Assembly: GCA_030145425.1 (NCBI GenBank)
Contig: JAQYVO010000306.1
Coordinates: 1 to 44,624 of the forward strand
DNA from: Chromatiales bacterium
GTDB lineage: Bacteria; Pseudomonadota; Gammaproteobacteria; Chromatiales; Chromatiaceae
Direction: 5' to 3'
DNA: 44,624 bases
Every line of letters starts with the position of its first letter. Within the stretch, counting starts at the first letter, position 1. A program made the translations under genes and the position numbers. The notes under the pieces are model-generated. The model searched no databases and was not told the origin of the DNA. It saw only the letters and a program-made list of their open reading frames with translations. Below are positions 484 to 786 of the stretch, piece after piece.

Positions 484-786
484 TGGTGGGCCCAGTAGGA
501 CTCGAACCTACGACCAAGGGATTCACTGGATCCCGATATTTTTACCGGGAGCGGACTATCTCATCATCCTGTGAAGGATGCGGGACGCTCTTGCCTGTTA
601 TTAAGAACACTGCAGTTCTCAGGTAGTCTCTGCACCTTCCAGCGGTGCACCGCTGGCTTGGCTCAGGGTTGCCATCAGCCTGGCTGTTAAGGGTTCCCTG
701 AATTCATCCCGTTCATTCCATACCTGTCGGTAGGGACGCACCATTATTGATGAGTCCCCTGCTCTAACCAACTGAGCTATGGGCCC
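484..786 (-). tRNA. ileX: tRNA-Ile(CAU), interrupted by a group I intron
   Basis: Exon 1 is 750-786 and exon 2 is 484-523 on the minus strand; joined they give a 77-nt cloverleaf with an encoded CCA. Acceptor stem GGGCCCA/TGGGCCC, D stem GCTC/GAGC, anticodon stem GGGGA/TCCCT, loop CTCATAA, T arm GTAGG-TTCGAGT-CCTAC. The anticodon is CAT. The anticodon stem and the variable segment TTGGTCG match tRNA-Ile2 (ileX), whose C34 is changed to lysidine by TilS so that it reads AUA, rather than elongator tRNA-Met. E. coli ileX also lies close to rpoD, as here. The gene is split directly after the third anticodon base. A TATAAT box with a GC-rich discriminator precedes it. Confidence 0.93.
524..749 (-). 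other. Group I intron (ORF-less, ~226 nt) in the tRNA-Ile(CAU) anticodon loop
   Basis: The sequence between the two tRNA halves has the hallmarks of a small self-splicing group I intron. The 5' exon ends in T (750), which can form the splice-site U.G wobble with an internal guide GTG at 739-741 that pairs with the exon CAT. The intron ends in G (524). By eye: P2-like hairpin with a GACA tetraloop (TACC/GGTA); P4 TCAGGG (696-701) with CCCTGA (663-668); conserved ATGGCAACCCTGAGCCAAGC; P6 extension CCAGCGGTGCACCGCTGG (639-656); GCAGAGACTA, with P7 GACTA (624-628) pairing TAGTC (554-558); P8 CATCCT-TCAC-AGGATG; a P9 hairpin near the 3' end. The core closely resembles the Azoarcus intron, which sits in the same tRNA. 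No homing endonuclease is encoded. The helix assignment is manual. Confidence 0.9.

Follow-up and report, generated by a model that had tools for sequence, protein, structure and literature searches.

A group I intron with a P7.1/P7.2 extension in the tRNA-Ile2(CAU) gene of a Chromatiales bacterium

The split tRNA gene and its ribozyme core

The window analyzed here, a stretch of 44,624 nt from a Chromatiales bacterium, carries on its minus strand, at 786-484, a tRNA-Ile2(CAU) gene that is interrupted after U36 of the anticodon by a group I intron of 226 nt. The strand reads GGGCCCATAGCTCAGTTGGTTAGAGCAGGGGACTCAT, then the insert, then AATCCCTTGGTCGTAGGTTCGAGTCCTACTGGGCCCACCA (Table 1). The initial annotation, made from the sequence alone, had described a group I intron in tRNA-Ile(CAU) and proposed a search with the Rfam group I model as a check. 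That search aligned the full length of RF00028 (model positions 1-253) to 762-532 with 72.2 bits, against a gathering score of 50 (E 1.6e-16), which bears the description out, and in a search of the whole window with Rfam this was the only match. The folding energy of the pre-tRNA lies 4.2 sd below that of dinucleotide shuffles. A search for a sigma-70 promoter near the split gene gave no match, and no endonuclease ORF was found in the 226 nt, so the intron lacks the encoded homing endonuclease of a mobile intron; its aligned relatives are likewise short.

Table 1. Features of the split tRNA-Ile2(CAU) locus, in window coordinates (G002, genome of the same genus)
Feature	Position	Strand	Remarks
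rpoD	866-2707	minus	directly upstream of the split tRNA gene; linkage also at the G002 empty site
5' exon of tRNA-Ile2(CAU)	786-750	minus	37 nt, ends ...GACTCAT at anticodon U36; equals nt 1-37 of the G002 intronless tRNA
Group I intron	749-524	minus	226 nt, last base G; RF00028 match, 45-member alignment and covariation
Internal guide GUG	739-741	minus	pairs with exon CAU (P1, U.G at splice site); invariant in 45 sequences
P2 hairpin	717-736	minus	8 pairs changed on both sides; loop GACA instead of family GNRA
P3 5' strand (705-711), P4-P5 (663-701), P6 (635-661)	635-711	minus	Rfam match and alignment
P7 5' strand (guanosine-binding helix)	624-630	minus	3' strand at 553-558; invariant in 45 sequences
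P7.1/P7.2 extension between P7 and P3	594-623	minus	P7.2 covaries in family; P7.1 across phage and bacterial hosts
P3 3' strand (581-587), P8 (565-580), P7 3' strand (553-558), P9 (531-550)	531-587	minus	alignment; P9 loop AAAA instead of GAAA
3' exon of tRNA-Ile2(CAU)	523-484	minus	CCA encoded; equals nt 38-77 of the G002 intronless tRNA

An alignment of 45 tRNA-Ile introns, the window copy included, reveals an intact guide, P3, P4, P6, and P7. Overall, 96.4% of the cells are paired, the figure being 100% in P3, P4, P6, and P7 and 91.7%, with covariation, in P8, while the U36.G pair and the terminal G are invariant (45/45). Cells changed on both sides number 369, as compared with 105 in shuffles, which ignore relatedness, and no more than 81 in slid controls, which preserve it. 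The locus thus displays the features that define group I introns: a P3/P7 pseudoknot core with P4-P6 and P8, a U.G pair at the splice site, and a terminal G. The pairing of a GTG guide with CAT, as originally suggested, holds in 45 of 45 aligned relatives, and the core segments quoted alongside it prove to be real in the same alignment.

An empty site in a congener and the need for splicing

In a genome of the same genus, G002, an intronless tRNA-Ile(CAU) gene lies directly downstream of rpoD and is identical to the joined window exons at 77 of 77 positions. This identity fixes the exon boundaries and upholds the original placement of a 226-nt insertion that begins after the third anticodon base and ends in G. 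It also refutes the notion that the locus is an artefact, with chance hairpins between unrelated tRNA-like fragments, for which nothing was found in favor and to which we accord a negligible probability; the RF00028 match, the covariation, and a folding energy below that of shuffles argue against it as well. Because the empty site shares the linkage to rpoD, the same locus contains the intron in one species of the genus and lacks it in the other. The simpler reading is that the intron was probably gained in the window lineage after its split from the congener; formally, the congener could instead have lost it. Several more genomes of the taxonomic family have full-length intronless copies of the gene, with 95-97% identity. 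In G002, a tyrosine-recombinase-like gene, recognized by eye (L210:1501-2704), follows the intronless tRNA-Ile(CAU), which suggests an integrated element with the tRNA as its attachment site.

The window's own genome is a draft of 338 contigs that is 91% complete, and within it neither a tRNA scan nor a sequence search detected a second tRNA-Ile(CAU); the spliced sequence matched the two window halves and a tRNA-Lys gene at 88%. A second intact copy could still lie in the missing ~9%. The genome encodes TilS, with the TIGR02432 and TIGR02433 domains scoring over their cut-offs, and this enzyme converts tRNA-Ile2(CAU) into a reader of AUA. The presence of TilS and the identity of the exons to the congener gene together identify the split gene as tRNA-Ile2(CAU). 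In the long ORFs of the window, 15% of the Ile codons are AUA, and both rpoD and dnaG contain it; from what is established about AUA decoding, this cell would require the spliced tRNA. Since a single tRNA-Ile(CAU) was detected, TilS is encoded, and AUA is used, splicing is very probably needed by the cell. The initial claim that the AUA-decoding tRNA depends on splicing is thus backed as likely, and the search for an intact second gene, named at the outset as a test of that claim, yielded none in the 91% complete draft.

Two peripheral loops set the window copy apart. L9 is GAAA in 44 of the 45 aligned introns and AAAA in this copy only, and L2, a GNRA tetraloop in the other 44, is GACA here, which makes the window copy the sole member of the alignment without GNRA at both positions. 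In compact tRNA introns the L2 and L9 loops dock into receptors, and in the intron of Azoarcus pre-tRNA-Ile both are GNRA. With these loops altered, the window copy may fold less stably, or the departures may stem from an error in the draft assembly. Together with the incompleteness of the genome, they lend something to the alternative that this is a true group I intron of which the window copy is impaired or dead, the cell relying on another, unassembled tRNA-Ile(CAU). However, the P1 guide, P3, P4, P6, P7, and the terminal G are all preserved and agree with the family, the exons are intact, the congener orthologue is the split locus's own gene, and no second copy was detected; we therefore judge this alternative to be very unlikely. 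Activity of the window intron as a self-splicing ribozyme is plausible, on the basis of its core elements and of experiments on a broadly similar bacterial intron, that of Bartonella tRNA-Arg(CCU), which self-splices in vitro and is spliced in vivo (PMC7717549).

The P7.1/P7.2 extension and its distribution in bacteria and phages

An extra hairpin between P7 and P3 (AGAAC/GTTCT), described at first as lacking from the Azoarcus intron, is real: it corresponds to P7.2 (604-619), within a larger P7.1/P7.2 domain that is present in all 45 aligned tRNA-Ile introns and absent from Azoarcus (PMC4498298). Inside the family P7.2 covaries and P7.1 is invariant. When phage introns and those of other tRNAs are compared, 8 of 9 distinct P7.1 5' strands meet their complement at the right place, versus 1.1 in shuffles, and none of 20,000 shuffles reaches 8; this count is conservative, as it undercounts sequences with a long P7.2. 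It is by the P7.1/P7.2 domain that the T4 td intron of phage (IA2) differs from the IC3 introns of Azoarcus and Synechococcus, the latter having no such extension between P7 and P3 (PMC4498298). By this criterion, as applied to the sequence, the window intron is not of the Azoarcus-type IC3; it does possess the extension of IA2-like introns of the T4 td type, the sole IA2 signature examined.

Among 369 genomes of the class, which identical introns in named records indicate to be Gammaproteobacteria, 50 contain group I introns, and at 24 loci, including the window and one locus from a separate search, a tRNA-Ile(CAU) gene is interrupted after U36. The pattern TTAGAGCAGNNGACTCATN{4,24}GGTGC gave 120 matches in genome contigs, most of them intronless betaproteobacterial tRNAs with GGTGC in their own 3' half; named records thus account for ~36 intron-bearing tRNA-Ile genes, including those of Lysobacter, Rhodanobacter, Dyella, and Woeseiaceae. 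The closest relative of the window intron in the 45-member alignment, at 86.6%, is from an Acidiferrobacterales MAG (L146). A family of tRNA-Ile introns without endonuclease genes is therefore widespread.

Several further loci were observed. One genome, G034, has both a complete split gene and a decayed second copy of the intron 3' part and 3' exon (L011, C149:6973-7247). An Opitutia-labelled MAG (L159, PLOH01000082.1) carries a tRNA-Ile(CAU) intron with P7.1 GCGG/CCGC, attributable to horizontal transfer or misbinning, and in another genome of the class (L069) a tRNA-Ile(CAU) intron sits elsewhere in the gene, between U33 and C34. In the window's own genome, a group I intron splits tRNA-Arg(UCU) between U34 and C35 (L012:309-1043, C147) and encodes a PD-(D/E)XK endonuclease (PF11645, E 2e-38); because of this endonuclease-bearing insert it was missed by the Rfam scan of that genome, and it was located via a gap in a tRNA cluster and a pattern search. 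The three genomes of the genus (own genome L002:1469-1765, C282; also L007 and L009) each have tRNA-Arg(CCU) interrupted by a group I intron that lacks P7.1/P7.2. In G002, tRNA-Leu(CAA) is split between positions 32 and 33 (L004:1562-1878), and the intron at this site falls with cyanophage psbA introns in a tree. Introns in tRNA-Thr(UGU) and tRNA-Lys(CUU) (L039, L040, L042, L045; L006) occur in further genomes of the class. At L082, L084, and L085, tmRNA genes carry a group I intron in their T-loop, a type already described (PMC11915505).

The window intron also matches phage records, and in the plasmid sequences searched no similar intron was found. In the Klebsiella jumbo phage Muenster (L242:1422-1734), a tRNA cluster includes an unannotated tRNA-Ile(CAU) that is split at the same position by an intron of the P7.1/P7.2 type (104 bits), 74% identical to the window intron over about 160 nt; an HNH endonuclease gene lies ~240 bases downstream of this gene. 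The same arrangement of tRNA-Ile(CAU) and P7.1/P7.2 intron recurs in four metagenomic viral contigs, the P7.1/P7.2 of the cyanophage S-SRM01 psbA intron is nearly identical in sequence to that of the window intron, and the P7-P7.1 signature is common to at least 120 viral stretches. The phage introns (T4 td, S-SRM01 psbA, and Muenster tRNA-Ile) thus resemble the window intron in having P7.1/P7.2 between P7 and P3. The Muenster intron also shares its tRNA site, whereas the T4 td and cyanophage psbA introns reside in protein genes. In a tree of 232 columns with moderate support, rooted on extension-less introns and built without Azoarcus, td, or GISSD references, the extension-bearing bacterial and phage introns group apart from tRNA-Arg(CCU), Arg(UCU), and Leu(UAA) introns, and all but one of the bacterial tRNA-Ile introns fall into a clade together with a tRNA-Lys intron.

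These data bear on the origin of the intron. The intron of Azoarcus sp. BH72 pre-tRNA-Ile(CAU), an IC3 intron, resembles that of the window in its host tRNA, its guide pairing with the anticodon, its compactness, and its lack of an endonuclease gene (PMC3984707). The shared host and the similar guide and core motifs would fit vertical descent from an Azoarcus-type IC3 intron. However, all members of the family have the P7.1/P7.2 extension that the Azoarcus intron lacks (PMC4498298), the family groups with phage introns (in a tree without Azoarcus), and intronless orthologues exist in the genus and the family; such descent is accordingly very unlikely. For the same reasons, namely an extension that is constant in the family and common to phage introns and the grouping in the tree, the Azoarcus intron does not stand as the close model that the initial annotation had made of it.

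Collectively, the evidence gives us high confidence in a joint reading: a tRNA-Ile2(CAU) gene that a small group I ribozyme, with P7.1/P7.2 and no endonuclease gene, interrupts after U36; the ribozyme is predicted to splice and was probably acquired in this lineage from the gammaproteobacterial and phage pool. In the precursor RNA, the guide GUG would pair with the anticodon CAU. By analogy with the family, a guanosine bound in P7 would attack after U36, and the freed 5' exon would then attack after the terminal G, joining the exons, after which TilS would convert the tRNA into the AUA reader. The likely source is a pool of such introns common to gammaproteobacteria and phages. Since some phages carry the same intron type at the same tRNA-Ile(CAU) site, the sequences suggest phages as a vehicle. 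More tentatively, it is possible that the gammaproteobacterial tRNA-Ile(CAU) introns represent a phage-connected P7.1/P7.2 lineage, distinct from an Azoarcus lineage that would have invaded the same tRNA independently, and that phage tRNA clusters with split genes are the vehicle for tRNA introns without endonucleases.

Detection by tRNA finders and implications

In its default mode ARAGORN found no tRNA in the window, in keeping with the expectation that standard tRNA finders would miss the gene. With introns allowed, it found the locus but called it tRNA-Gln(CUG), with splice sites displaced by two bases from the true ones, and nearly all of the related tRNA-Ile introns examined receive the same mis-call. 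That tRNA-Ile2 can contain group I introns, as in Azoarcus, and that tRNA finders overlook such genes is already known: the tRNAscan-SE 2.0 paper lists 36 genomes missing fMet or Ile2 tRNA due to group I introns, names Acidovorax and Burkholderia for Ile2, and states that such introns fall outside what the program was built to detect (PMC8450103). As described there, the Acidovorax and Burkholderia introns lie in the same tRNA and account in the same way for its apparent absence from annotations. The tRNA-Arg(CCU) introns of Agrobacterium and Bartonella are likewise group I introns beside the anticodon that annotation missed (PMC7717549), but they occupy another tRNA, and the gammaproteobacterial Arg(CCU) introns examined have no P7.1/P7.2. 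The P7.1/P7.2 type in tRNA-Ile2 and in phage tRNA-Ile genes was not found in the searchable literature, to which most subscription papers do not belong.

The split tRNA-Ile2(CAU) described at the outset is thus confirmed as an observation, and the interpretation first given to it is supported in part. Because the intron family is common and ARAGORN misses or mis-calls its host genes, apparent absences of tRNA-Ile2 in annotations are worth re-reading. The window's genome and G002 constitute a natural plus/minus pair for studying the gain of an intron in a required tRNA. Finally, split tRNA-Ile(CAU) genes in phages point to a route, open to testing, by which introns without an endonuclease could spread.
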